Assembly (NCBI GenBank): GCA_902772905.1
Contig: CACYCL010000062.1
Span: forward strand, 1 to 43,859
Length of the DNA: 43,859 nucleotides
Reading direction: 5' to 3'
From: an uncultured bacterium
GTDB lineage: Bacteria > Verrucomicrobiota > Kiritimatiellia > RFP12 > UBA1067
The notes below the pieces were generated by a model. The model saw only the letters and a program-made list of their open reading frames with translations. It searched no databases and was not told the DNA's origin. Positions 4,474 through 32,029 of the stretch are shown in pieces. Position 1 is the stretch's first letter; the number at the start of each line of letters is the position of its first letter. The translations under genes were made by a program, and so were the position numbers.

Positions 4474-4505
4474 GTACTCCTTTCGCCATCTCTGGCATTT
4501 TTGAT

Positions 4506-4514
4506 ATTATAGCA
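4506..4514 (-). promoter_or_regulatory. Extended -10 promoter of the sialate esterase gene
   Basis: On the minus strand the sequence reads TGCTATAAT, a perfect extended -10 box, 32 bases before the start codon at 4473. TTGCCT at 4527-4532 is a weak -35 candidate with 15-base spacing. This promoter has a normal leader with a Shine-Dalgarno, unlike several others in the window. Confidence 0.7.
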
Positions 4515-4518
4515 TATT

Positions 4519-6302: not shown

Positions 6303-6346
6303 ACTTGTGCTCCTTAGATGACGACATGCAATCGCTGCGAGCCCCA

Positions 6347-7129
6347 TCAACGCGTCTCGTCCAACCGCTCTGCGCGGCGCTCGCGGATAAGCATCGACGG
6401 GTTGCGCTTCAGCTCGGACGCCAGGTCCTTGAGCGATTCGGCGGCGTCTGCCGCATTGTCAACAATGCGCCCAATTTCCGAGCGGTGCGCATCCAAGACA
6501 GTGCGCATGGAGCGCGTAGACTCCGCTATCTGCTCGACAGTAACGCTGACGTTGCTCCATACGCTGGCAAAGTCCATGTTGTTGATCTGGTTCACTACCC
6601 GCGTTACGGACGACGAGAAGTCCTCCAGAAGAGAGACCTTCGGCGGCACGTACACAAACTTCGGCGTCCAGGTGATCGGCGGCGGCGGCGGCGCGTCAGG
6701 ATAGATGTCGAACTCGACATGGGAAAGGCCGGTTATGCCGCTTGCCGTGACTGTGGCGCGCAAGCCCGAATCAATGAGCTTCTGCAACGCCGACTCCGGC
6801 GTCAAGCCCTGGAGCTCGACGCCGTGGAACGTCGTGCGCTTGATGGCCATCCTGATGTAGATGCGGGAGTTCTCGCGGTTTTCCTGCACGTCGTAATGGT
6901 TGCCGACGAAGTCGATCAGCGCCACCTTGCCAAGCGGCACGCCCCTGAAGTTGACGGTGCTGCCAGCAGAGAGTCCGGTGATGGACTTGTCGTAGTAAGT
7001 CTCGACGAACACCGGCTCCTCGTCGCCAGCCACTCCGCCAAGCCAGATGAGAACCGCAACTATCGCAGCTATGCCAAGCATCACCGCGAAGCCGATTTTT
7101 GAGTAATGTGCGTGATTGTCGCTAGCCAT
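6347..7129 (-). CDS. mlaD: MCE-domain lipid transport substrate-binding protein (MlaD-like)
   Basis: A 260-residue inner-membrane protein. One membrane helix lies near residues 12-31 (IGFAVMLGIAAIVAVLIWLG) and an MCE domain follows, with the typical GLSAGSTVNFRGVPLGKV. The C-terminal third is helical and runs to a charged end. MlaD hexamers bind lipid in the periplasm and dock on the MlaFE ABC transporter, moving phospholipid between membranes. It overlaps mlaF by eight bases. Neither mlaC nor mlaB is present, so the set is closer to a minimal or PqiB/YrbC-like arrangement. The proline run near residues 145-150 is unusual but should not break the fold. Confidence 0.92.
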   Translation of the reverse strand: MASDNHAHYSKIGFAVMLGIAAIVAVLIWLGGVAGDEEPVFVETYYDKSITGLSAGSTVNFRGVPLGKVALIDFVGNHYDVQENRENSRIYIRMAIKRTTFHGVELQGLTPESALQKLIDSGLRATVTASGITGLSHVEFDIYPDAPPPPPITWTPKFVYVPPKVSLLEDFSSSVTRVVNQINNMDFASVWSNVSVTVEQIAESTRSMRTVLDAHRSEIGRIVDNAADAAESLKDLASELKRNPSMLIRERRAERLDETR

Positions 7130-12710: not shown

Positions 12711-13490
12711 TTACATCCGGAAGTTTTCCCCGAGGTACTTCTCTCGGACCTCCGGATCGTTAACCAGTTCGTCGCTCGTCCCCTCCCTTAGAAGACGACC
12801 GTCGTATACAAGATATGCACGGTTTACGACCGACAGCGTCTCACGAACGTTGTGGTCGGTTATGACAATGCCAAGGCCCTTCGCCGCCAGACGACGCACG
12901 ATGTCCTGGATTTCGTTGACGCTCAGCGGGTCAACGCCGGCGAACGGCTCGTCAAGCATCAACACGGCCGGATCGCGGACGAGCGCACGGGCGATTTCAA
13001 GTTTGCGGCGCTCGCCACCAGAAAGCGTGTATGCGGGCTGCTTCGCAACCTTCATCAAGTCAAACGGCTCCAGCAGCTCCTCGGCGCGTTCCGCCCGGCG
13101 CTTGCGCGAAAGCGGGAGCGTCTCAAGAATCGCCATCACGTTGTCCCAGACGGACAGCTTGCGGAAAACGCTCGGCTCCTGCGCAAGATAGCCAAGGCCC
13201 TTGCGAGCGCGCACGTAGACTGGCAGGCGCGTTATGTCCTCGCCACGGAACTCCACCTTGCCCTCCTCGGGCTTCACCAGGCCGACGACCATGTAGAACG
13301 TAGTCGTCTTTCCGGCGCCGTTCGGCCCTAGTATTCCGACAATCTCTCCGCATGTGCAGTGCAGGCTCATGCCGCCTACGACCGTCCTGTCGCCGTAGAC
13401 CTTGACTAGCTTTGTCGCCACAAGATCCGGCGTCTTGCCGAAACGCTCAGCGGCCATCGCGTTCATTGCATCCATTACAGGATCGCTCAT
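12711..13490 (-). CDS. lptB: LPS export ABC transporter ATPase LptB
   Basis: A 259-residue ATPase with Walker A GPNGAGKTT, signature YTLSGGERRKLEIARAL and Walker B AVLMLDEPFAGVDP. These match LptB, which powers extraction of lipopolysaccharide from the inner membrane with LptFG. The N-terminus is about 20 residues longer than usual. It overlaps lptA by four bases. LptF and LptG are not in the window. Confidence 0.96.
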   Translation of the reverse strand: MSDPVMDAMNAMAAERFGKTPDLVATKLVKVYGDRTVVGGMSLHCTCGEIVGILGPNGAGKTTTFYMVVGLVKPEEGKVEFRGEDITRLPVYVRARKGLGYLAQEPSVFRKLSVWDNVMAILETLPLSRKRRAERAEELLEPFDLMKVAKQPAYTLSGGERRKLEIARALVRDPAVLMLDEPFAGVDPLSVNEIQDIVRRLAAKGLGIVITDHNVRETLSVVNRAYLVYDGRLLREGTSDELVNDPEVREKYLGENFRM

Positions 13491-13957
13491 AGCGGCTCCA
13501 CGCCCCCCTTCTGCCCTGTCGTAAGGCTCACGTTGTCCACCTCGACCTGCTCGACGTCAAGCCAGAACCTGATGCGGTCGCCCTCCAGTTCGCCGGGATG
13601 CTCCCCGCCGTCGACAAGCCGTGCGCGCGCGCCGTCCCCGCCGAACATCTCTATCTCGCGCCTTGAACGCCGATACGTCGCCATCGCACACGTGCCAACG
13701 CGGGCGGCATTCGTAACCGTTACATTGCCCATTGCGACGACCTTTCCCAGCTCGTTGGATGCGGCCATGACCGCATACAGGCTGTCGGAGTTCATCGTGT
13801 ACTCGCCGGCGTGCGATATAGACACATGGCCCTCGAACACCGCGACGCCGGCCTTGCGGTCGTAGTCGGCCGAGTCGCTGCGGATGCGCGAGAACTCCGG
13901 CGACTTTGCGGCAGGAAGCGCTGCGGCGAAAACAACTACTGGAAGAAGCGCGATCAC
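13487..13957 (-). CDS. lptA: LptA/OstA-like periplasmic LPS transport protein
   Basis: A 156-residue exported protein with a short hydrophobic signal (ALLPVVVFAAALPAA). The OstA-type beta-jellyroll pattern is seen in RSDSADYDRKAGVAVFEGHV and MNSDSLYAVM, where short strands repeat as in LptA. LptA forms the bridge that carries LPS across the periplasm. The GTG at 13957 is chosen: it has AAGGAG at a good distance and forms a GTGA overlap with lptC. The C-terminus is short, which is common for the family. Confidence 0.85.
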   Translation of the reverse strand: MIALLPVVVFAAALPAAKSPEFSRIRSDSADYDRKAGVAVFEGHVSISHAGEYTMNSDSLYAVMAASNELGKVVAMGNVTVTNAARVGTCAMATYRRSRREIEMFGGDGARARLVDGGEHPGELEGDRIRFWLDVEQVEVDNVSLTTGQKGGVEPL

Positions 13958-14460
13958 AGCCCAACTCCTTCCATTTTTACGCCCTCGGTCTGAAGGTCAG
14001 CGCCATCGAACGCGCGAACATACGACTCCGGCGACGAGAAATAAATGTTTCTCCCGGCGAACGAGGTCTTGCCGTGCTGCACGCGCGCGGGGCCTTCCGC
14101 CCAGCCGCTTTTCGTGAACCGATCAATCACGCAGCTGCGAGCGTCGATGCGAATTTCCTGTCTACCGTCCGGCTCGAACTTGCGCACCACGACGTTTTCC
14201 GCCCAGACAAGCCCCGTGTCGAGGAATAACTGCGCGCGCTTGGCCTGCACAATGAGACGCACCGAACCGTCGGGATGCGTCTCAACAGGCACGCTCACGT
14301 CCTCTGCCGGATGATCCAGCCGCTGAAGGCAGTTCGAATACGCCTCGCGAAGACGCTCGGCCTCGCGCACATGGAGGTCGCGCTGCGCCCTCCACGCGGA
14401 AAGGTCGAACGCATGCGCGCCCAACGCCGCCATTGCAATGACTATCGACAGAAACCTCAC
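13954..14460 (-). CDS. lptC: LptC-like or OstA-like LPS transport protein
   Basis: A 168-residue protein with a short signal or anchor helix (FLSIVIAMAALGAHAF). A helical segment follows (about 20-50), then a strand-rich domain, including VRLIVQAKRAQLFLD and RNIYFSSPESYVRAFD, that resembles LptC/LptA jellyroll repeats. I start it at a GTG at 14460, which gives a four-base overlap with kdsA. Its place between kdsA and lptA supports a role in LPS export. Similarity is weak by eye, so it could also be a second OstA-domain protein. Confidence 0.65.
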   Translation of the reverse strand: MRFLSIVIAMAALGAHAFDLSAWRAQRDLHVREAERLREAYSNCLQRLDHPAEDVSVPVETHPDGSVRLIVQAKRAQLFLDTGLVWAENVVVRKFEPDGRQEIRIDARSCVIDRFTKSGWAEGPARVQHGKTSFAGRNIYFSSPESYVRAFDGADLQTEGVKMEGVGL

Positions 14461-15290
14461 TTCTTCCCTCTTGCCTCGCAAACACATTCATGAACCTTCA
14501 GCAGAGTCTTCCAGAGACTCTCCACCTCGGCAAGCCGTATGGCGTTCGCCGCGTCGCTCTTGGCCACCTTCGGGTTGACATGCGTCTCCATGAAGACCGC
14601 GTCAACGCCAGTGGCGACCGCCGCGCGAGCCAAGGCCGGAGCGTACTTGCCGTCTCCGCCAGAGCCAGTGCCAAGCCCTCCCGGACGCTGCACGGAGTGC
14701 GTGGCGTCCATGACCACTGGATACCCGAGCTCCCTCATGACGAGCAGAGAACGCATGTCAACGACGAGGTTGCGATAGCCGAACGAGCTGCCGCGCTCGC
14801 AAAGCGTGATGCGGCGGTTGCCGGTCGACTCTATCTTGCGCACGACCTGCGCCATGTCCTCCGGGGCCATGAACTGCCCCTTCTTCACATTGACCACCGC
14901 TCCTGTGCGGCCGGCCGCGAGAACGAGATCGGTCTGGCGCGCAAGGAATGCAGGTATCTGCAGCACGTCGCAGACCTCTGCGACAGGGGCGCATTGCCAC
15001 GGCTCGTGGACATCCGTAAGCACTGGCACATCGAACTTCGCGCGAATCTCTGCGAGTATCTCAAGGCCCTTGTCTATGCCAGGGCCGCGGAACGCATCGA
15101 CGCTGGTGCGGTTGGCCTTGTCGAAACTAGCCTTGAAAACATAACCGACGCCAAGCTTTCGCGCAAGCGACGAGAGACGACGCGCCAAGTCGAGCGCCAT
15201 CGCACGCGACTCTATGACGCACGGCCCCGCGATGAACACGAGCCCACCGTCGCCAAAAACAACGCCTTTGTCAACCAAGACCTTCTTCAT
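14457..15290 (-). CDS. kdsA: KDO-8-phosphate synthase
   Basis: A 277-residue TIM-barrel enzyme that joins PEP and arabinose 5-phosphate to make KDO 8-phosphate, the first committed step of the LPS inner core sugar. Typical blocks are FIAGPCVIES, FKASFDKANRTS, GKGLEIL-like GIDKGLEIL, VLTDVHEPWQ and MDATHSVQRPGG. It separates from DAHP synthases by these. It is probably the first gene of the long operon. An extended -10 box lies only seven bases before the ATG and there is no strong Shine-Dalgarno, so the mRNA may be leaderless. Confidence 0.97.
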   Translation of the reverse strand: MKKVLVDKGVVFGDGGLVFIAGPCVIESRAMALDLARRLSSLARKLGVGYVFKASFDKANRTSVDAFRGPGIDKGLEILAEIRAKFDVPVLTDVHEPWQCAPVAEVCDVLQIPAFLARQTDLVLAAGRTGAVVNVKKGQFMAPEDMAQVVRKIESTGNRRITLCERGSSFGYRNLVVDMRSLLVMRELGYPVVMDATHSVQRPGGLGTGSGGDGKYAPALARAAVATGVDAVFMETHVNPKVAKSDAANAIRLAEVESLWKTLLKVHECVCEARGKK

Positions 15291-18115: not shown

Positions 18116-19492
18116 ATGGACAGCAAGAGACACTCCATGTTTGGACAACTCCACGCAAAGATAGGCGATTTCTGGTGGTATTCGCTTATGATCTTCTGCG
18201 CGGCGCGGGTCGCAGATTGTCTCAACATGTTTGTGGGTCTGTGGCTAGTGCCGAAGTACGTCCCGCCGGAAGAACTGGGAGCCGTGCAGCCTCTTACCAG
18301 TTTCGCAAGCATGCTGGCAATACCAGCCGGCGTCTTTGCCACGACATTCAGGCAGGAAATATCCAACCTGGCGGTCAGGCGCGACTTCGGGCGCATGAAA
18401 ACCCTAATGCGAGGCGTATTCATCGCAACGGCGATACTCTTCTTCGTGGCCATCGTTGTTGCGAAGTTCATCCTGCCGTCATTCCTATGGCGAATCCGCA
18501 TCGCGGAAGGTTCACTCGGGCTCGTTATCCTCGCAGCGTCGTTTGTCGGTTCTGTCTCTGCCATATACCAGAATCCGCTGCAAGCGCTCAAGAAGTTCAA
18601 GGCGACCTCGGCCATACACATCCTCGGCGCGCCGATCCGATTCATAGTGATGCTGGTGGCAATGCCATACCGTGCGCTTGTCGGCTATTTCGTAGGACAG
18701 GCGTCAACACCTGCATTCTCCATCCTCGCATCGGTCGTCGCCCTGCGCAAAGAACTGTCCGTGCGCGCCGAGCCATATTGGAACCAAGATGTCGTCCACC
18801 GATTCGGGAAGCTCTTCCTGCTGTTCGGAGTGAGCGCCCTCGCCGGCGGCGTCGCGTCGCTTGTGGAGTCAACAACCATCAGGCAACGCTTGCCGGGAGT
18901 AGAATCCGCGGCCTACTACGTCGTCACGCGCTTCTCTGACATTTCCTCGTTCCTGATGAGCGCCTTGGCATTCACCATTTTCCCGTTCACGGCGGAACTA
19001 GCCTCGCGCGGCAGAAGCACGCTTCCGCTCGTGATAAAGACGAGCGCGGCGATCATGCTCACCAATTCTCTTCTCGCCGTCTTCTTCTGGCTTTTCGGAC
19101 GGCATATCATATCTCTGCTGCCGAACGGCGAATTATACGCCGAGTTCTTCTGGGCGATTCCCTGCATGATCCTCGTGACCACGCTGAACGCCTGCTCAAG
19201 CTTGTACACAACGGCAGAGACTTCGGCCAACAGATTCGGATACATGTGGTTCACGATCCCGACAAGTCTTGCATACGCCGCTCTGCTCCTTTGCGTGACG
19301 GGCTGGGGATACTTCGAACCATACATGCCGCAGCAGGTCAACGAGTTCTTCGGCGTCCACAACATTCGAACACTCTCTACAATGATGCTGTGGATGATCA
19401 TTGCAGCCGCAATACGACTCGCATGTTGCATGGTGCATGCCGCGAAAGGCAAACTACCACATCTCCACCCATCCCACAATCCCAAACGATGA
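18116..19492 (+). CDS. Polysaccharide flippase (Wzx-like, MATE/MVF superfamily)
   Basis: A 458-residue integral membrane protein with about 12 hydrophobic segments, the usual size for O-antigen or exopolysaccharide flippases. The start has the typical ARVADCLNMFVGLWLVPKYV, in which a helix is followed by a turn and the conserved pattern for membership of the polysaccharide biosynthesis family. It would move lipid-linked oligosaccharide across the inner membrane. It is the first gene of a three-gene plus-strand operon; its TGA overlaps the ATG of the next gene. The call rests on topology and context more than on a sharp motif. Confidence 0.85.
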   Translation: MDSKRHSMFGQLHAKIGDFWWYSLMIFCAARVADCLNMFVGLWLVPKYVPPEELGAVQPLTSFASMLAIPAGVFATTFRQEISNLAVRRDFGRMKTLMRGVFIATAILFFVAIVVAKFILPSFLWRIRIAEGSLGLVILAASFVGSVSAIYQNPLQALKKFKATSAIHILGAPIRFIVMLVAMPYRALVGYFVGQASTPAFSILASVVALRKELSVRAEPYWNQDVVHRFGKLFLLFGVSALAGGVASLVESTTIRQRLPGVESAAYYVVTRFSDISSFLMSALAFTIFPFTAELASRGRSTLPLVIKTSAAIMLTNSLLAVFFWLFGRHIISLLPNGELYAEFFWAIPCMILVTTLNACSSLYTTAETSANRFGYMWFTIPTSLAYAALLLCVTGWGYFEPYMPQQVNEFFGVHNIRTLSTMMLWMIIAAAIRLACCMVHAAKGKLPHLHPSHNPKR

Positions 19493-20310
19493 AGAACAAA
19501 ATCTGTACAGTCATTATATGTTCCTGCGATAAATACGCCGATTTACTGCCGCTATTTGCCAAACTCTGGCGACGCTTCTGGTCAGACTGCCCGTTTGAGA
19601 CAGTCCTAATTACGGAAAACGATCCCGGCATAACAGGCTTTGACCGTGTCGTTGCATGCGGCGCCGGCGGAACATGGTGCTCGCGGCTAGTCCATGGGCT
19701 TGATGCAATCAAAACACCGTACGTGCTGATGCTCTGCGATGACTACTTCCTTTCGCAAAAGGTAGACACCTCGCGCTTCCTCTCGCGCCTATCGCAGATA
19801 CAGGAATTCGGAGCGGCAAATCTACGTCTCATCCCGAACCCAAAGCCGGGCGCGGCAAATGCATCACCGTTCGACCACGGCACAGACCTCTTCCGCTACA
19901 AACCGCTCACTGCATATTCGATTGCAACGCAGTCAGGGATATGGGAACGAGGCTTTCTGCGTTCGCTCGCCGACGGCAGGGCGTCGATATGGGAGTTCGA
20001 ACGATACGGCTCGTTCGACAACCGCACGATTGACTCGCCGATTCTTGTTACCCCGGCAAAGGAGTTCCCCTTCGTAGACGCCGTGCACAAGGGATATTGG
20101 GAAAAGTTCGGACTCGATGTCTGCTATAAAAACGGTATTGATCTGAGCGGAACATCGCGTACGCTCCCGCCGTTCAAGGTGCGTCTCGTCGAAGGTCTCA
20201 AAGGGCTCGTCTTTCGTGTCGTCCCCTGGAACTGGATCGTCCGCATCCAAAACGCACTGGATATCGGCGCCAAGGAATCGCCGCGAACTAAAGACAAGGG
20301 AGACAGATGA
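19489..20310 (+). CDS. Putative glycosyltransferase (GT-A-like)
   Basis: A 273-residue soluble protein. It starts KICTVIICSCDKYADLL, a beta-strand/helix opening as in GT-A enzymes, and has a DxD-like block YVLMLCDDYFLS near residues 80-90, where the acidic pair could bind the metal and sugar nucleotide. The ATG at 19489 overlaps the flippase stop (ATGA). It would add a sugar to the glycan exported by the flippase. I do not recognise the CAZy family; donor and acceptor are unknown. Confidence 0.68.
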   Translation: MKNKICTVIICSCDKYADLLPLFAKLWRRFWSDCPFETVLITENDPGITGFDRVVACGAGGTWCSRLVHGLDAIKTPYVLMLCDDYFLSQKVDTSRFLSRLSQIQEFGAANLRLIPNPKPGAANASPFDHGTDLFRYKPLTAYSIATQSGIWERGFLRSLADGRASIWEFERYGSFDNRTIDSPILVTPAKEFPFVDAVHKGYWEKFGLDVCYKNGIDLSGTSRTLPPFKVRLVEGLKGLVFRVVPWNWIVRIQNALDIGAKESPRTKDKGDR

Positions 20311-20592: not shown

Positions 20593-21600
20593 TCAATGAC
20601 TTTTGCGCGTCGTACTCGTGAGTAGCTTCATGCGAACCACATGAAGAAAACCATGAAGCCAGGATGGCATCACCAGTTCGCAGAAGCCTATCACCTTGCC
20701 CCGAATCGTATACAAGCGCCGCGCCGAACGATGGTCGGCCAGATAGTCGCCCGTAACGGGATATACAAGGTGTGCGTATCGCGCGGCATTCTTGCGAACG
20801 TATTCCGGGTAAGTTCCGTCCATCGGCTCTGCAAAGCAGCGCATCTCCCAAAAAGGCCCCCTCCCCGAACGAATCATCGCGTCAAGTTCCGCAACGTCGA
20901 CCTTGCCCTCTCCGGGGTTGTATTCCTGGTGCGCAAAGGACGCAATCTTCTTCGCTAGCGCCTCAGCGCCTCCAAGGCATGTAAAGTGCCACCCTCCATT
21001 CTTGACGACATGCTCGCCGCCGCGCGAACGCGGCAGGCGGCGGCAACGGATCTTCGACGCGGTAGTCCCTTCGTTCACAGACGGCGGCAGAAACTCGTCT
21101 TCATGCACCTTTACGCCGTCAAACGCATGGCAGAAGTCTTTGTACGAGACCATCCGCGTGCCATGCCACCATTGCTGACGAACATTGCGGTAGTTTAGAT
21201 AGAATGCATAGTACGTCTGGTCGAACACTGTCACACCAGGGGTTCCCACGTACTTGGCGATTTTCTCTGGTCTCGGTATCTCGTCAAGGTCAGAAATCAA
21301 GATGACATCGTCATCCTTTGCGCCCTTCAAGCCTTCGGCTATCGCGTTTCTCTGCCAATTCTCGCGCGCCCAGCTAGTAGTGCAGACTTCGGGAAATCGC
21401 TCTATCGCGACATAAATGATTCTATCCCTGAAAGCGGCGAATCTGGCCTCGTTCTCCTTGAAGTACAGCGGTTTAGGCTTGCCAGTGTGCGTCTCGCCGG
21501 CCTCGACAAGGACGAACTTGTCGACAACATCCTTCAGCACGTTAAGCCTGATCTCCAGAAGGTCAAGCTCGTTGAAAAAGCTAAAGCAGTCGTATATCAT
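20593..21600 (-). CDS. GT17-family glycosyltransferase, copy 1
   Basis: A 335-residue protein of the GT17 type (PF04724; eukaryotic member MGAT3). The N-terminus MIYDCFSFFNELDLLEIRLN is a hallmark, followed by THTGKPKPLYF, WARENWQRNAI and the DxD-like block ILISDLDEIPRPE, where the acidic residues would bind the nucleotide sugar. KNGGWHFTCLGG is also typical. In eukaryotes the family adds bisecting N-acetylglucosamine; bacterial members lie in surface-glycan clusters. A second copy lies at 25264-26262. It ends 10 bases from the convergent small membrane protein gene. Confidence 0.9.
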   Translation of the reverse strand: MIYDCFSFFNELDLLEIRLNVLKDVVDKFVLVEAGETHTGKPKPLYFKENEARFAAFRDRIIYVAIERFPEVCTTSWARENWQRNAIAEGLKGAKDDDVILISDLDEIPRPEKIAKYVGTPGVTVFDQTYYAFYLNYRNVRQQWWHGTRMVSYKDFCHAFDGVKVHEDEFLPPSVNEGTTASKIRCRRLPRSRGGEHVVKNGGWHFTCLGGAEALAKKIASFAHQEYNPGEGKVDVAELDAMIRSGRGPFWEMRCFAEPMDGTYPEYVRKNAARYAHLVYPVTGDYLADHRSARRLYTIRGKVIGFCELVMPSWLHGFLHVVRMKLLTSTTRKSH

Positions 21601-22010
21601 AGAAAAGCCCTTATGCCGCCGTTTGCGTCAGAATCACCTGGCATCACAACGTCTAACTCCCGTCGAGACGAAACGGCCTCCTGTTTTGTCCGCGAGTGCG
21701 ACGTTCTCGACGCGTATTGTCTCAAACTTAGTTGCCGGTGTCAAGTGGGCATGCCTGCGCAAGAATACTTTGGCAATGTCGCAAAGTCGGGGATGGCTAA
21801 AGGACTCTTGCGTAGCGACATATCCCGAAGTGAGGCGCGCAAGCGGTCGCTAGAGGGGTGCGCCCCCGCCGTCGAAAATGCTGCGTAACGTGGGACCGCC
21901 ACTCATTCGATCCACGACGGCGAGGGCACCGTCGCTACGCAAATCGACACGCCGTCGCTACGAACACTGAAAACCAAAGTCCCAGCCTTTTCCGAATGGG
22001 ACCGTCAAGC
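21601..22010. other. Gene-free stretch with inverted repeats, possible MITE-like or REP-like element
   Basis: A 410-base gap with no convincing gene. TTGCGTAGCGAC at 21808-21819 and GTCGCTACGCAA at 21931-21942 are perfect 12-bp inverted repeats that bound a 135-base stretch. A further GTCGCTACG lies at 21954-21962, and CGACGG/CCGTCG (21915-21920, 21929-21934) forms an internal hairpin. The layout recalls a small interspersed palindromic element. No transposase is seen. Confidence 0.5.
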
Positions 22011-22865
22011 TCAGGATGGGCGTCTTCTGCACTTCTGCTTAATCGTCCACAAGACAAAGTCCGCTGCGTATCTCGCATACTCCCACGGCGTCCTGTGCGT
22101 CAAGTACTTCTCCAGCGTGAACTGATGGTGGTACTTCATGCAACGAAGACAGTATATCTCGTCCTTCCTCAGAAGATGCTTGACGCCCAGCCAGCGTATG
22201 GGCGCATCGCCCCATCTGTGCCGCCAGATGCCGCGGGCGGCATCTATTGCGGCAAAGAAGTCCTGCCACTCCGTGCCACGGAAGAAATTCAAGTCGCATA
22301 TCTCGAAGTTTGTATAGTACAGCTTCACACTGCAAAGCCGCCTAACGCCCCTGACGACCTCCGAGTGACGGTCAAAATAATCCTCGACGGTCTTCAGCAG
22401 GCCAATCGCCCATTCCGGCTTCTCCTTCATTATCATTCGATAAGTGTACCTGATTCCTTCACGCTCCATTTTCTCAAACACATTGAACTTGACGGGAGCA
22501 AGGATGTACGAATCAACATCAAGACGCATCTGGTATGTATACCGCTGCAGCTCAGGGCGAAGGAAAATATCGTTGGCGAAGAAATGGCACATGTGTCGAT
22601 ACCCGCGCTGGCCCCTTGGCAGATCCTCCATCTCCTTGGGCACGGCCGAGAAATCGACCTCGGCATAGTGAATGTCGAGATTCGCCATTGACTGGTCAGA
22701 ATCCATCAAAGACCTGTCAAAATCGCTTTCATGGAACACCCATATGTCCGCAGGCGACCACGGCAGAAAGTTCTTCGCCAGGGAGTTGATGCTTTTTATC
22801 AACTGCCTTATCTGATCTTCGGAAGATCTCGTCAGATACACCACTGTACTTCTTGTCATCGCCAT
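22011..22865 (-). CDS. GT15-like (Ktr/Mnt-type alpha-mannosyltransferase family) protein
   Basis: A 284-residue protein whose blocks match the fungal KTR/KRE2 mannosyltransferase pattern (PF01793). These are YRHMCHFFANDIFLRPELQ, the Dx-containing YTYQMRLDVDSYI, then NFEICDLNFFRGTEWQDFF, RWGDAPIRWLGVKHLL and KDEIYC...YHH. Fungal members add alpha-1,2-mannose with GDP-mannose; the Glu in NFEI is the proposed catalytic residue there. Unlike fungal enzymes it has no membrane anchor. It lies in the surface-glycan region downstream of the AAA remnant gene. An ATG at 22859 is an alternative start. The match is by memory of the family pattern and should be confirmed. Confidence 0.78.
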   Translation of the reverse strand: MAMTRSTVVYLTRSSEDQIRQLIKSINSLAKNFLPWSPADIWVFHESDFDRSLMDSDQSMANLDIHYAEVDFSAVPKEMEDLPRGQRGYRHMCHFFANDIFLRPELQRYTYQMRLDVDSYILAPVKFNVFEKMEREGIRYTYRMIMKEKPEWAIGLLKTVEDYFDRHSEVVRGVRRLCSVKLYYTNFEICDLNFFRGTEWQDFFAAIDAARGIWRHRWGDAPIRWLGVKHLLRKDEIYCLRCMKYHHQFTLEKYLTHRTPWEYARYAADFVLWTIKQKCRRRPS

Positions 22866-22916
22866 CGCACCTTGCCTCGCTTATTGTTGTGGCCAGCGTA
22901 AATGTTGTCATTGGAC

Positions 22917-23375
22917 TCACATGACCTCGATGATCGGCTCGTCGATGTTGCGCTTCTTGGAGTTGAAGTTGATCCCGATCGATGTGACACGGCGCCTGCC
23001 GCCATTGTACGCGTCGGCGTACCCCTTCTCGCGTATCTGGCGGACAGCCGCCTTCGCGCTTTTGTTGAACTCGAACACGTACACCGCCTTGTCGAAGTCA
23101 GACATGTTTAGGTCGATCACCGGATAGGTCTGCGCCCAGTTCCATTTCTTCTTCGCGATCTTGAGCCCCCCCCTGAAGAGCTTCTTCTTGCCTTGAAACA
23201 GACACTTGAACGTCGAGAGCATCAGCGACTTGCCAAACCTGCGAGGACGCAAGATGAAATAAATCGCATCCTTTGCGGCAGCAAGTTTCCAGAGCATGTC
23301 CGTCTTGTCGACGTACACGCACCCATCGTTAATAAGCTTCTCAAAATCGTAGTTGGCCGTCGCAATAGGTTTCAT
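22917..23375 (-). pseudogene. Internally deleted AAA-ATPase-like / PD-(D/E)XK gene
   Basis: A 152-residue product that joins the two ends of a family normally about 500 residues long (AAA-ATPase_like, PF09820, with a PDDEXK_9 tail). Residues 1-95 hold the family N-terminus with NYDFEKLI, VYVDKTDML and the P-loop-like FILRPRRFGKSLML. From about residue 106, FEFNKSAKAAVRQIREKGY and the terminal GINFNSKKRNIDE are the nuclease-like C-terminus. Sensor, lid and most of the nuclease core are missing, yet the frame is kept. It may be a relic or a reduced protein still made from its own promoter. The start at 23375 follows a -10 box by seven bases. Confidence 0.8.
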
Positions 23376-23382
23376 GCCGCGT

Positions 23383-23391
23383 ATTATAGCA
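23383..23391 (-). promoter_or_regulatory. Extended -10 box before the reduced AAA gene
   Basis: TGCTATAAT on the minus strand, seven bases (ACGCGGC) before the ATG at 23375, with no Shine-Dalgarno; leaderless start expected. Confidence 0.65.
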
Positions 23392-23502
23392 AATTCCACC
23401 TCACACCGCCTTGCCGAAGTCCAGACAGCCGGTTCCCTCCCTCGCCATACAACTGGCCACGCATCAACCAACACGCCTCCACGCATGTGACATTACCCAA
23501 AA

Positions 23503-24363
23503 CTATCGCGCAAGGCGCGACCAGCAAAGCTGCACGCCGCACCATCGCTCAAGACATGATTGCACACCATAAACCAGGCGTTGCGCAACACGAACCAGAC
23601 ATACGCGGAGACCGAACCGATAGGACGTTCCATTGCGCTGTCGCGATGCCTCGACAGCAGGAACTGAAAACAAGTTGGGTCCCCAATGGAAATCCCAAAC
23701 CGCGGCTATTCGGTCGTGCGTCGAAACATTAGACAAGTATTTGTACAAAAGCAAAGTCAGAACTGATTGATCGTGTCTATTCTCCAAGAATGCGGGCAAT
23801 TGGTCAACACACCCCTTCGCATCAACATCCACAATCCTTTCAGGATGATCCAGCATAATCTCTAGCCACTTAGAGATAAATGCAGTTGTAAAGTCGCTTT
23901 TCTTGATAATGATAATGTTAGCTTCAAACTGAAAACACATATTACAAGATGTCTTTGAAATCTCCTCAGGGAAGAGTTCAAGTAGACTTTTGCAAGTCCA
24001 TCTATATGTGCAGCAAGGAATTTTCCTGACAAGGATATCCCTTGTACGCATCGCTCCGAACAACCGTTTCCACTGGTATGTCGCACAAAAGAGAGAACAT
24101 CCGGCGTCACAGTAAACAAGCACGTCACCGTCGCGCAACTGCGACAAAACCGAGAGAATTATATCGGGCTTCCAAACCCAATATCCACACCCACGCTTAT
24201 GTTCAAACAGTTTAGACTTTTTTGTTTTTGGCGATACATTTGACATGTCATAGCCAAGGATCTCGTCAAAGCAACCTGTTTTCCTTGCTTCGCTGACAAT
24301 CCTTTCGCGGGCGGCAATGAAGTTTACCCCACCATCACCAAAAGTAAGAAAGACTTTCTTCAT
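23503..24363 (-). CDS. Putative glycosyltransferase of capsule/O-antigen type
   Basis: A 286-residue soluble protein. The order KVFLTFGDGGVNFIAARERI, GYWVWKPDIILSVLSQL and DGDVLVYCDAGCSL is found in proteins of capsule and O-antigen clusters that are annotated as hypothetical or glycosyltransferase-like. The DAG after the hydrophobic strand may be the sugar-nucleotide site. It lies 50 bases after GT11 on the same strand, with GGAG nine bases before the ATG. The last 50 residues (after HWGPNLFS) are basic and less conserved-looking. I cannot give the linkage or sugar. Confidence 0.6.
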   Translation of the reverse strand: MKKVFLTFGDGGVNFIAARERIVSEARKTGCFDEILGYDMSNVSPKTKKSKLFEHKRGCGYWVWKPDIILSVLSQLRDGDVLVYCDAGCSLFCATYQWKRLFGAMRTRDILVRKIPCCTYRWTCKSLLELFPEEISKTSCNMCFQFEANIIIIKKSDFTTAFISKWLEIMLDHPERIVDVDAKGCVDQLPAFLENRHDQSVLTLLLYKYLSNVSTHDRIAAVWDFHWGPNLFSVPAVEASRQRNGTSYRFGLRVCLVRVAQRLVYGVQSCLERWCGVQLCWSRLAR

Positions 24364-24413
24364 TTACCATGACTCCGTTTTCTTGTGCAAAAGCGCACTT
24401 CGATTCCACAATA

Positions 24414-25253
24414 TCATTTGACTGGAGAGGAGCCAGAAAAAGAACCTTCTTTGATGAATTTTTCCACAACGACATGGTCATTTCGACTGCGAAGACTCAA
24501 GCGCGGCTTGTTGCCATAATACGCCGCCCACCATGAGAAAGTACTAGCCGGCCCCATTATATAATCGCAAAGCGACAGTGTAACGATATCCTCTTGCGGT
24601 GAACCAGAAGCATCCATCACATCCTGGCCATTCTCCCTGAAATACGCGACGTTTATCGGCTCGTTTGACACCATTGCAAACTTGACGCGTCGCCCGATGG
24701 ATGATTCAAACTCGCGCATCATGCGAAGGTATGTCGCATCGTCAAAATACCATTGAGGCATCATCTCTTTGTAGTCTCCGCGCCGCAAATGAACGCCTAC
24801 AACTATCGCGCCATCTTTCCGTAAGCTGTCTACAATTTTGTTGGGGCGAACACAATGCATATCCTTTGCGCGAAGGAAGGCCACAATCTTCTCGTGATGT
24901 CTTGCTATCGCCTCGCTGTTGCGAAAGTGCCAGTTCCACAGCAGAAGATTCTTGCGTCGCCCTGCTATCCACTTCTCGCACCGTGCGGCATTTCCGTCTA
25001 AATACCGCTGCCCAAAGCTAGGCAACCGCTGAAGCCACCCATGCAAAACGTCAACTGGTATGCATCGCCTCCAGTTGAAGCATCGCACCTTTATCTCCGG
25101 AATGACCTCTGGATGCAGATCGGAAAACGATCGTATCTCCCGTCCAAACGGATGGATGATGTCTGTTTCAAGATCCATGGCCGTCGCAAGCGTATGCACG
25201 AACCATAAGATCCGATTGCACATCTGCCCTGTACACTGGATGGAATATATCAT
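24414..25253 (-). CDS. GT11-family alpha-1,2-fucosyltransferase-like protein
   Basis: A 279-residue protein. The N-terminus MIYSIQCTGQMCNRILWFVH fits the GGLGNQ-type glycine-rich start in a diverged form. The GDP-fucose site VVGVHLRRGDYKEM is the classic HxRRGDY motif of GT11, and CDYIMGPASTFSWWAAYYG is the conserved C-terminal block. It would transfer fucose, or a related GDP-sugar, to galactose in the surface glycan. It follows the second GT17 gene by ten bases. Codon use appears more AT-rich than in the housekeeping genes. Confidence 0.85.
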   Translation of the reverse strand: MIYSIQCTGQMCNRILWFVHTLATAMDLETDIIHPFGREIRSFSDLHPEVIPEIKVRCFNWRRCIPVDVLHGWLQRLPSFGQRYLDGNAARCEKWIAGRRKNLLLWNWHFRNSEAIARHHEKIVAFLRAKDMHCVRPNKIVDSLRKDGAIVVGVHLRRGDYKEMMPQWYFDDATYLRMMREFESSIGRRVKFAMVSNEPINVAYFRENGQDVMDASGSPQEDIVTLSLCDYIMGPASTFSWWAAYYGNKPRLSLRSRNDHVVVEKFIKEGSFSGSSPVK

Positions 25254-25263
25254 ATCATCTAGC

Positions 25264-26262
25264 CTATATCTTTATTGGTTCACGGACTAGCTTGCAGTAG
25301 AGTTTGAAAAGAAGTGGCTTAAATACCTTCGGTATAACCCTTGCAACAGTTCTTCTAATCCATCCCATGCACCAATACTTCATTCGGGCAAAGTATGTTT
25401 TCCGAAAATACTCTCTAGAAGGTGTCAATATCAAATTCGCATATCGATCACGATTTCTTAGTATGTAATCAGGAAATCGTTTATCCAACGGCGTAATGAA
25501 GAATTTGTGTCCACAACCAGTAATATCATCGCCATTTAAAATATGATCTTTGATCCATGAAGTCGACGAGGTATTATCATTAGCATATTCAATGGCTATT
25601 GCATTAATCTTTTCCACAATCTTCTCCTCATTACCCAGATACGAAAAATGCCATCCTCCTTTTGATAGCGAAATCATCGGACGTAGACGACGCAATTTTG
25701 ACGCAGTTGGGCCTTTATTTATCACAGGATCAACATAGTCGCAAGGTTCAAATTTAGCATAAGTATCATCGTTACAAAACGTATCATAATGCACAGCTTT
25801 GGCAATATTCAGATATGGAATGGTATAACTCCAAAAATTAAGGAAAAAATTGAAAAACATTTGTTCAAAACCAACAACGCCACCGCGAAACGGGATTCGC
25901 CTAATCGCGCTAGGTGAAGGAATCTCGTCAAGATCAGAAATCAATATAATGTCATTAGGTCTCGCTTCCGTTAATCCTCTTGACACTGCATTACGCTGCC
26001 AATTTTCACGCATCCAACTAATCTGTTTTGCAGTATATCCCTCTGGCGGACTGGGGAAGTCATCAACCACGATGTGAATGATGCGATCGGCGAACTCTGA
26101 GAACCGCGATTTGTTCTCTTCGTAATAAAGTGGCTTGGGTTTGCCTGTGTGCGTTTGCGTCGCCTCGGCAAGCACAAACTTGTCGACGACGTTCTTGAGG
26201 ACGTTCAATCGTATCTCAAGCAAATCAAGCTCATTGTAAAAGCTAAAGCAATCGTATACCAT
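25264..26262 (-). CDS. GT17-family glycosyltransferase, copy 2
   Basis: A 332-residue paralogue of the protein at 20593-21600. The first 60 residues are nearly the same (YDCFSFYNELDLLEIRLN, THTGKPKPLYY), as are WMRENWQRNAV and ILISDLDEIPSPS, but the second half differs a lot. The gene is visibly AT-richer than copy 1, so a separate origin is more likely than a recent duplication. A GTG at 26265 is possible, but the ATG at 26262 aligns with copy 1. GGGAG lies ten bases upstream. It starts an operon with GT11. Confidence 0.9.
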   Translation of the reverse strand: MVYDCFSFYNELDLLEIRLNVLKNVVDKFVLAEATQTHTGKPKPLYYEENKSRFSEFADRIIHIVVDDFPSPPEGYTAKQISWMRENWQRNAVSRGLTEARPNDIILISDLDEIPSPSAIRRIPFRGGVVGFEQMFFNFFLNFWSYTIPYLNIAKAVHYDTFCNDDTYAKFEPCDYVDPVINKGPTASKLRRLRPMISLSKGGWHFSYLGNEEKIVEKINAIAIEYANDNTSSTSWIKDHILNGDDITGCGHKFFITPLDKRFPDYILRNRDRYANLILTPSREYFRKTYFARMKYWCMGWIRRTVARVIPKVFKPLLFKLYCKLVREPIKI

Positions 26263-26289
26263 CACAAGTCGTCTCCCATAAACGAGCTC

Positions 26290-26382
26290 TCATATCTTGG
26301 CGTTGAAGTCAATCCCTACACTCTCCCATAACAGTTTCAAGAGCAACACGCATCTCGCGATTTGTGACATGGTAATTTTCAT
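26290..26382 (-). other. Short frame coupled to the AAA ATPase, with a PD-(D/E)XK-like tail
   Basis: A 30-codon frame whose ATG overlaps the stop of the AAA ATPase (ATGA). Its end, ESVGIDFNAKI, resembles the C-terminal end GINFNSKKRNID of the reduced AAA/nuclease gene at 22917. It is either a leftover of a lost gene of that family or chance; the rest shows no motif. Confidence 0.35.
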
Positions 26383-27497
26383 TGCCTCATCCGAAGGTAC
26401 TCTGCAAGCAGACGGTCATACACGACATAGCCGTTGCCGCCACGATAGACAAGCTCCTTGTCGACAAGCATTTCGAGCGACGTCTTAACGCTGCTCGCCG
26501 CGCGGAGGCCATGCTTCGATATGAAGTCGGATGCCTGCGGTGACGCAACCACTCGCTCGGACGCAATGGCCCTCAAGAGCCGCCGTGCGCCGTCCGGAAG
26601 TATTTCCATCACTCTCTGCTGGTCATATTCGTTTGAAAGAACCCGCTGCAGCACAGCCTCGTCAAGCTGTCCAACAGACGTAATGTCTTCGCCGGATGCA
26701 TAAAAGTCCCATAGCAGGGCCTGGACATACCAGGTTATACCGTCGAAGCGGCGATACAATGCACCAAACACCTCTCTGGAAAGTTTCCGCCCCGACTTGC
26801 GGAAGAAGCCATTGGCGAAGTCATAATATGCATCTTCGGATATGACGTCAATCGGCATCATCAGCGACGACTGGTAGAATGGGCGCTTGGGCGATGTAAA
26901 CATGTCGCGCATGATATGCTGCCTGGATCCCGCGAATATAAAGCGAGCTGGAGAAAACTGTATATGGCTTCGCAGAACGGCCTCGATGCCCTTCTCGGGA
27001 TATTCGGCGATTTGCTGGAACTCGTCGATGGCGATGACAGTTCTCCTGTCATGCTCCTTCAAGTAGTCAAAAACATCGGCAAGCGTCCTTTCCGTCTGTG
27101 CAGGGGAGACGTTCAGCGTCAGCGACGGCTTGCCACTCGCATCATCATACGACAAAACCGGTCTTACGCCCTGAATGAGCCTACGGGCGGCCCCGCCGAC
27201 TTTCTCAAGCGGCGTGTCAAGACGACCGATGACAGCAGCCGACAGCACCTTCGTAAACTCCGCAAGGTTCTGAGTACCGAATATGTCCACATATATCGTT
27301 TCATATTCCGCATGCCGGGAAAGACGGTCGAAGGCGTTCATGACGAGCCCCGTCTTGCCGTAGCGCCTCGGCGAGAGAAGCGTGACGTTGCTCTCGTTGC
27401 GTATCGCGCTGCAAAGCCGTTTCGTCTCCGCAACCCTGTCGCAGAAATACTCCGGGCCATGGTATCCTGCGAGTACAAATGGATTTCTGAACTTCAT
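26379..27497 (-). CDS. AAA ATPase of the archaeal-type (ATPase_2) family
   Basis: A 372-residue ATPase. Walker A is LLSPRRYGKTGLVMNAF near residues 40-56 and Walker B is TVIAIDEFQQIAEYP near 153-167. SARFIFAGSRQHIM-like FIFAGSRQHI is sensor 1, and the C-terminus (about 300-372) is a winged-helix region. The family (PF01637) is common in archaea and in gut bacteria, often in many copies and linked to mobile or defence genes; its function is mostly unknown. The start follows an extended -10 box by six bases. It has no obvious functional tie to the glycosyltransferases on either side. Confidence 0.88.
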   Translation of the reverse strand: MKFRNPFVLAGYHGPEYFCDRVAETKRLCSAIRNESNVTLLSPRRYGKTGLVMNAFDRLSRHAEYETIYVDIFGTQNLAEFTKVLSAAVIGRLDTPLEKVGGAARRLIQGVRPVLSYDDASGKPSLTLNVSPAQTERTLADVFDYLKEHDRRTVIAIDEFQQIAEYPEKGIEAVLRSHIQFSPARFIFAGSRQHIMRDMFTSPKRPFYQSSLMMPIDVISEDAYYDFANGFFRKSGRKLSREVFGALYRRFDGITWYVQALLWDFYASGEDITSVGQLDEAVLQRVLSNEYDQQRVMEILPDGARRLLRAIASERVVASPQASDFISKHGLRAASSVKTSLEMLVDKELVYRGGNGYVVYDRLLAEYLRMRQ

Positions 27498-28107: not shown

Positions 28108-29292
28108 CTAATAATCAAGTTTTTTTAATTCAGTTTTCAACCACTCCAAGGAACTCTCTCTCTGCCGCTTCAAGTTCTTATCGGAAAAGGCAAGACTATC
28201 ACCTTGCGAAAATGACACAAATGCCTCGTCATAGCTATTGCACAAAACATTCGTCTCAATGTTCTCCTTTGCAAACTCCTCGAGCCTAGCGAACCCTGCC
28301 ACGCCTCTTCCGTTCCTTGGACGCAACACTCTCACATTCTTTTTGAATATCGTTGAAAACATCAACGCGTGGAATGAATCGGTAATAACCCAATCTGCCG
28401 TTGAAATCTCACGAACAAATTCATCTGGCGTAGCCATCGCATGGGTATGGACATGCGGAGATAGATACGCTCGCATGGGACCTGTGGAAATACGGACAAA
28501 TTCGCCCACGCTGGAAGGCAGCAACGTACACGGTGTGCCGAAGAAGATCTCCACGTCGCAATTCTGATTTTTTGCAAAGCATCGCAAATCATTCACAACA
28601 AAACCAAGCGGATCATGTATAAGGTAGCAAACAAGTTTGCGTCTGCCGTTAGAGCCACGCTGGCCAACAAACCGATTCCATACAGAAATGTCTGCCAACA
28701 ACGTTGGGTCAAGCACATGTGCCGCATGTCCGCCCAACGATTCCACGATTCGCGCACCCTGTTCTTCGCGCACACTTATGGCTGAAAACCGCTTAATGCC
28801 ATCTTGATAGCGCCCCCTCAGTTCGTCAGATATCGTCGGCACGCCAATACTTGCCGCATATGAGATTGCCGGCACATGGGGTGCGTTTTCAAGAAGATAT
28901 GGCAGCTCTGAACCTTGCAGTCCAGGATTCCATACTTGATCACTTCCGACGATTAATACATCTACACCAAGATCTCTCGGAGCGTCTTTCCAGTGACAAA
29001 AACTATACGGTGTCAGATTTAGCAACTTTGGCAGCATTCGCGCCGTTCTAATGTGTCTTATGTAATCCGCCCCATCGCCAAAACCAAGCAAAGCACGTCC
29101 AATGAACTTTATCCACGCAACAATAGATCGACTTGCAGTTATGCCGTGCAAGGTTGCATTACGTTCATCTATCCAGCGATCTACCACAACAGCATCATGC
29201 CCTAAGTCTTTTAAGACCTCTTGCAGTGCATACGTCTGCAGCACGCCGCCATAATTCACTTGTGAATGAAAAGTTAGAATGCCTATTTTCAT
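28108..29292 (-). CDS. Polysaccharide pyruvyl transferase family protein
   Basis: A 394-residue protein that starts MKIGILTFHSQVNYGGVLQT, the classic opening of the pyruvyl transferase family (PF04230). VDVLIVGSDQVWNP and VITDSFHALMFSTIF are the two other conserved blocks, the latter holding the SFH motif. Members add a pyruvate ketal to sugars or have a related job in exopolysaccharide assembly. Its ATG overlaps the stop of the FrhB-like gene (ATGA), a pairing often seen in exopolysaccharide clusters. Confidence 0.92.
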   Translation of the reverse strand: MKIGILTFHSQVNYGGVLQTYALQEVLKDLGHDAVVVDRWIDERNATLHGITASRSIVAWIKFIGRALLGFGDGADYIRHIRTARMLPKLLNLTPYSFCHWKDAPRDLGVDVLIVGSDQVWNPGLQGSELPYLLENAPHVPAISYAASIGVPTISDELRGRYQDGIKRFSAISVREEQGARIVESLGGHAAHVLDPTLLADISVWNRFVGQRGSNGRRKLVCYLIHDPLGFVVNDLRCFAKNQNCDVEIFFGTPCTLLPSSVGEFVRISTGPMRAYLSPHVHTHAMATPDEFVREISTADWVITDSFHALMFSTIFKKNVRVLRPRNGRGVAGFARLEEFAKENIETNVLCNSYDEAFVSFSQGDSLAFSDKNLKRQRESSLEWLKTELKKLDY

Positions 29293-30473
29293 ATATCTTC
29301 AGGCCTTCCGACCGTATGCCATTTTATCCACCGCAGGATTCGATACCAAAGCGGAGGCATCATCAACCGTTCAACCAATTCATCAAAATTAGCCGATGTT
29401 ACTTCAGCAAAAAAGCGATCTCGCTTTTTATTTGCCGTGTGATTATCGAACACCATTTTATTTATCTGCGCCACATCATGAATGTCTGACAACTTGCTCC
29501 AGACCGAATCAGCTACGGAAGAAGCCGATATTTTACCCTTTTCTGTATTGATGCAGACCGCCGAAATTCCAATGTCATCGCTAAATTCGGGCCATATACG
29601 CTCGATGCCCCAATAATCGCCGATTGTTATATCTGAGCCGCTTTTGAAGTATCGGAACACGCAACCATGACAACATTTACGATTAAACAATTCCGAGCAA
29701 AAAGCTCTTAGATATGTATCGTTGGAAGGATTGACCAAGTACGCGTTGTCGCTTGAATTAACAAACTCAAGAGACAATGCGTACTTTCTCCAGGCGCAGT
29801 TGCGTCTGGAGAAAGTTCGCACAATCTTGGCTCCCTCCTTGCACTCTTGACATGAAAGATATTTCTGCCATGCCATCGGAGAAGGCACTGCATGACAAAT
29901 AACATCAACCAACAAAAGATTTTCAGGTTGCCCGTCTAGGAATCTCCTGAGCCCTGCCACTTGACATGGACAGCCAGAGAACAGAACATGACGACCATGG
30001 TCTAAATCTCGCTTTACATTTCTAAAGGTGTCGCCCATATCAGACTGTACGTATTTGGAACCCCTCAGCCTGTCAAGACCTTCTTCGTCCTCCACGGCAA
30101 TGTGCACAACCTTGTGCGTTTCTGGCTCAAATGCCGCGCCATATACAACACCGCCCCTTTCTAGAACTCTACGAGCAAGCAACGAAAAGATGCCGCCCGA
30201 AGAACTGATGCGCCTAAGTTCATCGTCCTTTGCTTTCGCTGCATATACCGCCAGCGGCTTGCGCGGTTCACTAGGATTTAAAACGGGACACACGCGTGAA
30301 CATAGACCGCATTCAACGCATAGATTACCATTGACAACAGGCTGAAGAAAACCTTCGCCATCCGGCTTCATCTCAATTGCGCCATGCGGACACGCGGCAA
30401 AACACGCTGAGCATCCGCAGCACCGATCAGGTGACGGCAATTTTGGCAAGATATCTAACGGACAATCTTTCAT
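29289..30473 (-). CDS. FrhB-like iron-sulfur flavoprotein (F420 hydrogenase beta-subunit family)
   Basis: A 394-residue protein. Two 4Fe-4S ferredoxin motifs lie at the N-terminus (CCGCSACFAACP near residue 18 and CVECGLCSRVCP near 50). The FrhB-type N- and C-terminal domains follow, with RRISSSGGIFSLLARRVL, GSKYVQSDMGDTF, VLFSGCPCQVAGL and ITIGDYWGIERIW. In polysaccharide clusters such proteins are thought to do redox chemistry for the partner pyruvyl transferase. A TTG at 30479 is a less likely start. A TATATT box lies 11 bases before the ATG, so it may be nearly leaderless. Confidence 0.9.
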   Translation of the reverse strand: MKDCPLDILPKLPSPDRCCGCSACFAACPHGAIEMKPDGEGFLQPVVNGNLCVECGLCSRVCPVLNPSEPRKPLAVYAAKAKDDELRRISSSGGIFSLLARRVLERGGVVYGAAFEPETHKVVHIAVEDEEGLDRLRGSKYVQSDMGDTFRNVKRDLDHGRHVLFSGCPCQVAGLRRFLDGQPENLLLVDVICHAVPSPMAWQKYLSCQECKEGAKIVRTFSRRNCAWRKYALSLEFVNSSDNAYLVNPSNDTYLRAFCSELFNRKCCHGCVFRYFKSGSDITIGDYWGIERIWPEFSDDIGISAVCINTEKGKISASSVADSVWSKLSDIHDVAQINKMVFDNHTANKKRDRFFAEVTSANFDELVERLMMPPLWYRILRWIKWHTVGRPEDI

Positions 30474-30507
30474 GTGCAAAGCCTAATATACAGCAACGCA
30501 CATCATA

Positions 30508-31156: not shown

Positions 31157-32029
31157 TCATGAAATACAACTCCGATTCCGCACAAGATCAACAATCGACC
31201 CACAGAGAGCTGATGGTGAACGGATAAACGCAGCACATACAAAGCATGGAAGAGTGAAAGCCCTTCCCCAAAAGCCGAAGTTCTTCCAAAATGAATAGAT
31301 GATGTTTCTGAAATACCTCCGCCAAACTAAATGATCGTCAAACAGTCGGGATGTCGCACCACACAAATGATCGATCGGGAGAGTCGGCACAAACCATGTC
31401 TCCCACCCAACTTTGCGCGCCCTATGGCAGAAGTCTGTTTCTTCATAATACGACCAAAAATGGTCGTAAAAGAGAAAGCCAAGATCATCAAGCACCTTTC
31501 GCTTGAACATGAGCATCGCACCCTTGGCTGCAAAAACCTTTCTCGGTACAAGCACTGTCGTTGCTGTCGATTCGCCCCTATGCAAATGTCGCTGTATGCC
31601 AAAAGGGGTCATCAACACTCCACAGTCGTCCAATCCGTTCCCTAGCGACGGCACATTCATCGTACCCTGAACGATGCCGACGCGCTCATGCAATTGAAGG
31701 AATTCTACAAGTGGAGAGAACGAATCACCGTAAATAACTGTATCGTTGTTCAACAGTAGGATATAAGGTCTAGTTGCCATGCGCACCCCAATGTTGTTTC
31801 CCCCTGCAAACCCAGGATTTCCGGGCACCGCTACATATACAACACCAGGAAATTTTCTGATCAGTGCTATGACCGACTGTGAATCGGCATTGTCAACTAC
31901 TATGATCTCAGGAATTTCGCCATAGACTCTGAACAGCGACGAGAGGCAGTTGCGAAGCAGTTCATCGCCGTTCCATGTGACAATGACTATAGAAAGCTCC
32001 CTAATTAGGGGTAACGTTTCACCACGCAT
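31157..32029 (-). CDS. GT2-family glycosyltransferase (WbbL/rhamnosyltransferase-like)
   Basis: A 290-residue GT-A enzyme. It has the opening LSIVIVTWNGDELLRNCLSS, VDNADSQSV, the glycine-rich GNPGFAGGNNIGVR and the metal site LLLNNDTVI, then the acceptor-side block YYEETDFCHRARKVGW. This pattern is that of rhamnosyltransferases and related GT2 proteins of surface-glycan clusters. TGCTATTAT lies 13 bases before the ATG, so its leader is very short. Confidence 0.93.
   Translation of the reverse strand: MRGETLPLIRELSIVIVTWNGDELLRNCLSSLFRVYGEIPEIIVVDNADSQSVIALIRKFPGVVYVAVPGNPGFAGGNNIGVRMATRPYILLLNNDTVIYGDSFSPLVEFLQLHERVGIVQGTMNVPSLGNGLDDCGVLMTPFGIQRHLHRGESTATTVLVPRKVFAAKGAMLMFKRKVLDDLGFLFYDHFWSYYEETDFCHRARKVGWETWFVPTLPIDHLCGATSRLFDDHLVWRRYFRNIIYSFWKNFGFWGRAFTLPCFVCAAFIRSPSALCGSIVDLVRNRSCIS

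Follow-up and report, generated by a model that had tools for sequence, protein, structure and literature searches.

The stretch analysed here (the window) is contig CACYCL010000062.1, 43,859 nucleotides from an uncultured bacterium of the phylum Verrucomicrobiota, and it encodes a glycosyltransferase (GT) of family GT15, the KRE2/KTR type, within a cluster of glycan genes (the island). The protein, at 22011-22865, is a genuine member of this family by sequence, fold and active-site alignment. A bacterial branch of GT15, and the common occurrence of the family in contigs of uncultured viruses, are new here. The island is probably devoted to a surface glycan or lipopolysaccharide (LPS), with the GT15 enzyme using a sugar activated by guanosine diphosphate (GDP) to extend a surface oligosaccharide; on this reading the family is shared with phages and was not captured recently from fungi.

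The GT15 protein and its active site

22011..22865, minus strand: GT15 (KRE2/KTR-type) glycosyltransferase of 284 residues, identified by PF01793, a PDB profile, an AlphaFold2 model, Foldseek and residue mapping; motifs DVD (D116, D118), NFEI (E188), RWGDAP (217-222) and H247

A preliminary description of this DNA had assigned the protein to GT15 from the blocks NFEICDLNFF and RWGDAP. Both are present exactly, and every reading frame that the description named is open over its full length on the minus strand. PF01793 matches the protein with an E-value of 2.5e-25 and 90 bits (curated cut-off 25), in an alignment that covers only profile positions 153-324, while phage relatives span 55-324. The description had named a missing match, or a catalytic Glu or RWGDAP out of alignment, as grounds for giving up the assignment; the match is significant, the catalytic residues are aligned and the assignment survived. 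NCBIfam and PHROGs hold no family that matches GT15 (two phage GT15 proteins were tested with PHROGs).

Structural comparison leads to the same family. As a single sequence, the window protein matches Kre2 (1.3e-15) and Ktr4 (9.4e-16) in the PDB. A profile built from ten prokaryotic GT15 members, bacterial and phage, retrieved only 1s4n, 5a07 and 7boo among matches with E up to 1; all three are GT15 structures, matched over the whole domain at 1.5e-43 to 9.5e-40. The structure prediction proposed earlier as a check gave an AlphaFold2 model with a mean predicted local distance difference test (pLDDT) score of 86.8, and this model is nearest to GT15 structures: the top 11 Foldseek matches are all GT15 chains (about 3e-18 to 4e-17), followed by the next family at 2e-8. 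The TM-score against solved GT15 structures is 0.76 over the query, with 19-21% identity in the Foldseek alignments.

Residues that bind manganese and GDP in the Ktr4p complex are named in the literature (PMC4546622). They were mapped onto the window protein by alignment, and the numbering was validated by nine of nine named residues falling on the expected letters. For the manganese ligands, E262 corresponds to D116 (Asp for Glu) and H411 to H247; for the guanine contacts, R142 corresponds to R13, D173 to E46 and M238 to M92. The glutamate of NFEI is E188, RWGDAP is intact, and Y89 (Y235 in Ktr4) is invariant. A GDP-sugar donor is favoured because of the guanine-contact positions R13 and E46, and the window genome encodes GMD (1.4e-161) together with a ManC-like protein. 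Retaining transfer of mannose from GDP-mannose is the most likely activity, and an alpha-1,2 linkage is a putative one that we infer from the family.

The window enzyme resembles Kre2p/Mnt1p and Ktr4p of Saccharomyces and CmsA/Ktr4 of Aspergillus in Pfam family and GT-A fold, and shares with the fungal enzymes NFEI, RWGDAP, the metal-binding His and the Arg and Met that contact GDP. It differs from them in its bacterial surface-glycan context, its size (about 285 residues) and its metal-binding motif, which is DVD instead of EPD, EPN or EPK; DxD is found in all prokaryotic GT15 members, whereas these three variants are those of the three fungal sequences compared. It also lacks an N-terminal hydrophobic segment and begins directly with the first beta-strand (residues 6-12), so that the type II membrane anchor and stalk are absent. 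Anchor and stalk characterise the fungal enzymes and do not define the catalytic family. For a family studied as an antifungal target, these small, soluble proteins from prokaryotes offer convenient material for work on structure and mechanism.

Rarity, phage relatives and ancestry

GT15 is rare in bacteria, within the Verrucomicrobiota genomes sampled. A PF01793 match turned up in only 3 of the 346 genomes sampled from the class: that of the window, G005 from its genus and G050 from its order, so that a single order holds all three. When 388 genomes were sampled evenly across the phylum, only two of these three came up, and a second class of the phylum had none in 198 genomes. Plasmids searched with the window protein and one phage GT15 gave no match. 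Genome contigs gave nothing with the window protein alone and only the two known orthologues with a three-member profile, a search with narrow patterns. The earlier remark that GT15 is unusual in bacteria holds for the genomes sampled.

Previous literature treats the family as fungal or eukaryotic: among 153 genomes PF01793 occurred only in fungi (PMC5225481), and it has been used as a signal of eukaryotic genes in soil metagenomes (PMC11237643). No report of GT15 in bacteria or phages was found in the open-access literature. In that light the contig or gene might be eukaryotic or misbinned, more so as the window is one contig of a fragmented metagenome-assembled genome (MAG; 205 contigs, 2.36 Mb, 90% complete). 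Such contamination is highly improbable and largely refuted. The contig is bacterial throughout (rsmH, lptB, kdsA, hprK, ptsI), with bacterial genes on both sides of GT15; the gene has no intron, and two other independently assembled 'Verrucomicrobia' MAGs carry orthologues (54 and 45% identity) in bacterial contigs.

Outside these genomes, relatives are found in uncultured viruses. Searches of IMG/VR returned relatives at 17 loci with a bacterial profile, at 21 loci with a mixed profile and in 102 stretches with a viral-led profile. The viral proteins number 74 distinct sequences in 59 clusters at 95% identity, and Pfam assigned 13 of 13 tested to GT15 (2.3e-20 to 1.9e-37). Several of the contigs are clearly those of tailed phages, as judged from their genes (UvsX, T4-type DNA polymerase, DnaB, head protein). 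The terminase large subunit (TerL) is encoded on 10 of 22 long GT15-bearing viral contigs; the viral status of the others, including L125, which has no TerL, comes from their IMG/VR listing alone. Four GT15 queries found no match in 50,697 deposited phages (INPHARED). The best match of the window model in BFVD is a predicted giant-virus protein (1.6e-14). With a bacterial branch and so large a phage reservoir, signals of PF01793 in metagenomes may be partly viral.

Phage GT15 proteins (e.g., L006, L009 and L022) share DxD, the His and RWGD with the window protein at 30-37% identity, and their loci resemble the island as arrays with GT11 and with P0004-type genes, named after a probable glycosyltransferase of the window. 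Most of them differ from bacterial and fungal copies in that Asn replaces the guanine-stacking Arg (the Ktr4 R142 position, which is Arg in the bacterial copies). Among 56 non-redundant viral GT15 loci, GMD-type genes occur in 31 (a count that includes related epimerases of nucleotide sugars), GT11 in 18 and P0004-type genes in 15, and these figures stand without a background rate. At locus L006, genes of all three kinds lie with GT15 inside 7 kb, and L125 combines GT17, GT11, GT10 and GT15 in 5 kb. In prokaryotes, the family consists mainly of genes of phage glycosyltransferase arrays.

These viral contigs also showed some features of their own. The GT10-type fucosyltransferase of L125 (3227-4126), a contig listed as viral, adjoins GT11 and GT17. 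Two GT15 genes, often in tandem, are present on phage contigs L156, L136, L133, L146, L135 and L126, and L182 encodes a GT15-containing protein of 591 residues. A phage protein that looked GT17-like at first (L012, 7834-8631) is not related to GT17.

Phylogenetic analysis, another check proposed earlier, places the bacterial copies within a viral clade and not with the three fungal sequences. A tree of 77 rows splits the fungal rows from the rest (100/100), unites the three bacterial rows in one clade (100/100) and sets this clade within a mainly viral one (100/95). The exact sister of the bacterial copies among the viral sequences is unstable: L006 held this place at 95/92 in a small tree, and more weakly in the 77-row tree. 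A clade of bacteria and fungi was not quite rejected with the first small tree by the approximately unbiased test (p-AU 0.057), and was rejected when the longest branches were left out (p-AU 0.012). Since the trees hold only three fungal sequences and their root is arbitrary, the data bear on a recent capture from fungi, which they contradict, and not on the direction of movement. As judged from these sequences, bacterial and phage copies descend from common ancestors and do not stem from a recent fungal capture; the bacterial ones are neither nested in the fungal sequences nor sister to them, as such a transfer would have them.

The origin of the fungal mannan enzymes becomes a testable question. 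One scenario, speculative and at present improbable, is that GT15 was originally prokaryotic or phage-borne with the canonical DxD; phages would employ it to reshape the surface glycans of their hosts, copies would persist in a few bacteria for their LPS, and fungal KRE2/KTR, with EPx, would be a derived branch acquired by a fungal ancestor.

Gene context and proposed role

Genes of LPS synthesis and export, and further glycan genes, flank the GT15 gene:

12711..13490, minus strand: lptB, LPS export ATPase (TIGR04406, 5.2e-103)
13487-13957: LptA-like gene (PF03968, 7.5e-9)
14457..15290, minus strand: kdsA, Kdo-8-phosphate synthase (TIGR01362, 3.1e-117; Kdo, 3-deoxy-D-manno-octulosonic acid)
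28108..29292, minus strand: polysaccharide pyruvyl transferase (PF04230, 2.8e-30)
29289..30479, minus strand: FrhB/FdhB-like iron-sulfur protein (PF04432, 1.8e-17)
31157..32029, minus strand: GT2 glycosyltransferase (PF00535, 1.8e-19)

In the window, kdsA lies 6.7 kb from GT15, on the left of the island together with lptB and the LptA-like gene. Within the island the G+C content falls from about 0.6 to 0.40-0.54, a comparison made inside the window, and the window genome has four Wzy_C (O-antigen-ligase-type) genes. In genome G050, the start of GT15 lies 34 bp behind kdsA on the same strand, with the gene for a GT1-type (Glycos_transf_1) transferase next in line. The window thus resembles LPS core and O-antigen islands in its flippase-like, pyruvyl transferase, GT2 and GT11 genes, its low G+C content and the nearby kdsA and lpt genes, although no GT15 member was found reported from such islands in the open-access literature.

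A role in an LPS core or O-antigen-like structure is the most likely one, given the kdsA, lptB and LptA-like neighbours, the gene order in G050, GMD and the ManC-like protein, the Wzy_C genes, the island's G+C content and the lack of a detected STT3-type N-oligosaccharyltransferase. This region would be a variable surface-glycan island beside the Kdo and LPS-export genes of a Verrucomicrobiota bacterium, and GT15 a cytoplasmic, metal-dependent GT-A enzyme. Acting by a retaining mechanism, it would move most likely mannose, from GDP-mannose, or another GDP-activated sugar. The acceptor that we infer is a surface oligosaccharide still linked to lipid, either LPS core or an O-antigen-like glycan, on the cytoplasmic side, and the step would precede flipping and export.

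Several points weigh against this proposal, besides the qualifications attached above to the viral gene counts, the small tree and the fungal sampling and root. GT15 is directly beside kdsA in only one of the three genomes. Ser234, Asn172 and Trp204 of Ktr4 are not kept in the window protein. Since most phage copies have Asn at the R142 position, members of the family may differ in their donor. The absence of a detected STT3 in the window genome is not proof, as the MAG is 90% complete.

GT15 might instead act on something besides LPS (an exopolysaccharide, O-linked glycoprotein or glycolipid, for example) by the same GDP-sugar chemistry. The genes for the pyruvyl transferase, the FrhB-like protein and the flippase point to a polysaccharide of the Wzx type, and on its short contig in G005, GT15 has as neighbours a PlsC-like acyltransferase gene and an RNA-methyltransferase-like one in place of LPS genes. 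The operon with kdsA in G050, and kdsA and lptB near the window island, argue in the other direction, and such a target is somewhat unlikely.

It is also conceivable, if rather unlikely, that GT15 is a gene for serotype conversion or superinfection exclusion, left by array-bearing phages and altering LPS against phage binding. Phage arrays and the window have GT15, GT11 and P0004-type genes in common, L125 assembles four such transferase families in its 5 kb, and G+C content drops in the island. Against a phage remnant, neither an integrase nor any structural gene of a phage was recognised in the surroundings of the island, the monophyletic bacterial copies are 45-54% identical, which argues for a residence that is not recent, and L125 is viral by its listing, without TerL.

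GT17, GT11 and other genes of the island

The remaining transferase genes, and the flippase, are as follows:

18116..19492, plus strand: probable polysaccharide flippase (Wzx-like), about 15 overlapping hydrophobic segments, no Pfam match
19489..20310, plus strand: probable glycosyltransferase-like protein (MKNKICTVIICSCDKY...), no Pfam match
20593..21600, minus strand: GT17-family glycosyltransferase, first copy (PF04724, 1.9e-27, 96.7 bits, residues 2-115)
23503..24363, minus strand: P0004, probable GT-A fold glycosyltransferase, no Pfam match
24414..25253, minus strand: GT11-family (alpha-fucosyltransferase-like) protein (PF01531, 2.4e-12, 47 bits, cut-off 23.9; HLRRGDY)
25264..26265 (possible ATG start at 26262), minus strand: GT17-family glycosyltransferase, second copy (PF04724, 1.3e-24, 87.3 bits)

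Two GT17 genes, and beside the second a GT11 gene with an HxRRGDY motif, had been proposed in the preliminary description, and Pfam bears out all three. The PF04724 matches (cut-off 26 bits) comprise about 120 N-terminal residues and about 120 of 348 profile positions, the N-terminal third. The two GT17 proteins are 40% identical to each other, and the second gene, with a G+C content of 0.40, is poorer in G+C than the window as a whole (0.56). Pfam likewise confirmed the pyruvyl transferase and the FrhB-like protein noted earlier; the accompanying flippase is likely from its hydrophobic segments.

Among 16 regions of related genomes that contain GT17, 6 also have a relative of the flippase nearby (34-59% identity), and for this reason flippase and GT17 look like a recurring module. 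Relatives of the protein at 19489..20310 accompany GT17 in 4 of the 16.

GT17 and GT11 are ordinary bacterial families here. PF04724 is present in 18 of 58 relatives within the order, where it is thus common, and plasmids from Azospirillum, Pantoea, Sinorhizobium and Bdellovibrio carry it as well. These bacterial GT17-like proteins share the Pfam region of the window copies; such proteins are known, without characterised function or demonstrated MGAT3 activity (PMC4202792). Neither NCBIfam nor PHROGs has a family for GT17. GT11 is present in 5 of 40 relatives, with three copies in the window genome.

These distributions contradict the earlier view of the island as a eukaryote-like set, as does the finding that the nearest non-bacterial relatives of its GT15 are phage-borne and not fungal. 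The function proposed with that view, a glycan that mimics host or fungal N-glycans or mannans and is built by enzymes acquired from eukaryotes, is very unlikely. It could draw on the fact that fungal and animal enzymes of GT15 and GT17 have N-glycans or mannans as their substrates, and on the rare, patchy distribution of GT15. Bacterial GT15 nevertheless groups apart from fungi and has DxD instead of EPx, MGAT3 activity is undemonstrated for bacterial GT17, no STT3 was detected in the 90% complete MAG, and the context is one of Kdo and LPS. The window GT15 more likely decorates the outer surface of the bacterium itself.

P0004 was modelled by AlphaFold2 with a pLDDT of 75.9 and has a weak GT-A match, the best being 6bsu (5.2e-6). 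Its family occurs in 46 viral loci (L053-L098), and the members tested have no Pfam, NCBIfam or PHROG family. The motifs GxGYWxWKP, D-x-D and HDQS characterise the family.

Between GT15 and P0004 lies an AAA-ATPase_like/PDDEXK_9 protein of 189 residues (22917-23486, minus strand; PF09820 1.2e-27, PF08011 1.2e-8), which appears to be what an internal deletion has left of a member of a repeated family. An ATPase_2 (archaeal-type ATPase) gene, assigned by Pfam, is also found inside the island (26379-27497, minus strand), and a relative of it (28% identity) adjoins a flippase-like gene in L185. To the left, a NanM-type Kelch domain is fused to a sodium:solute symporter (15385-17952, minus strand), and sialate-O-acetylesterase-type and GDSL genes are near this fusion at 2971-6350; together, the fusion and these neighbours are a possible sign of sialic acid use.

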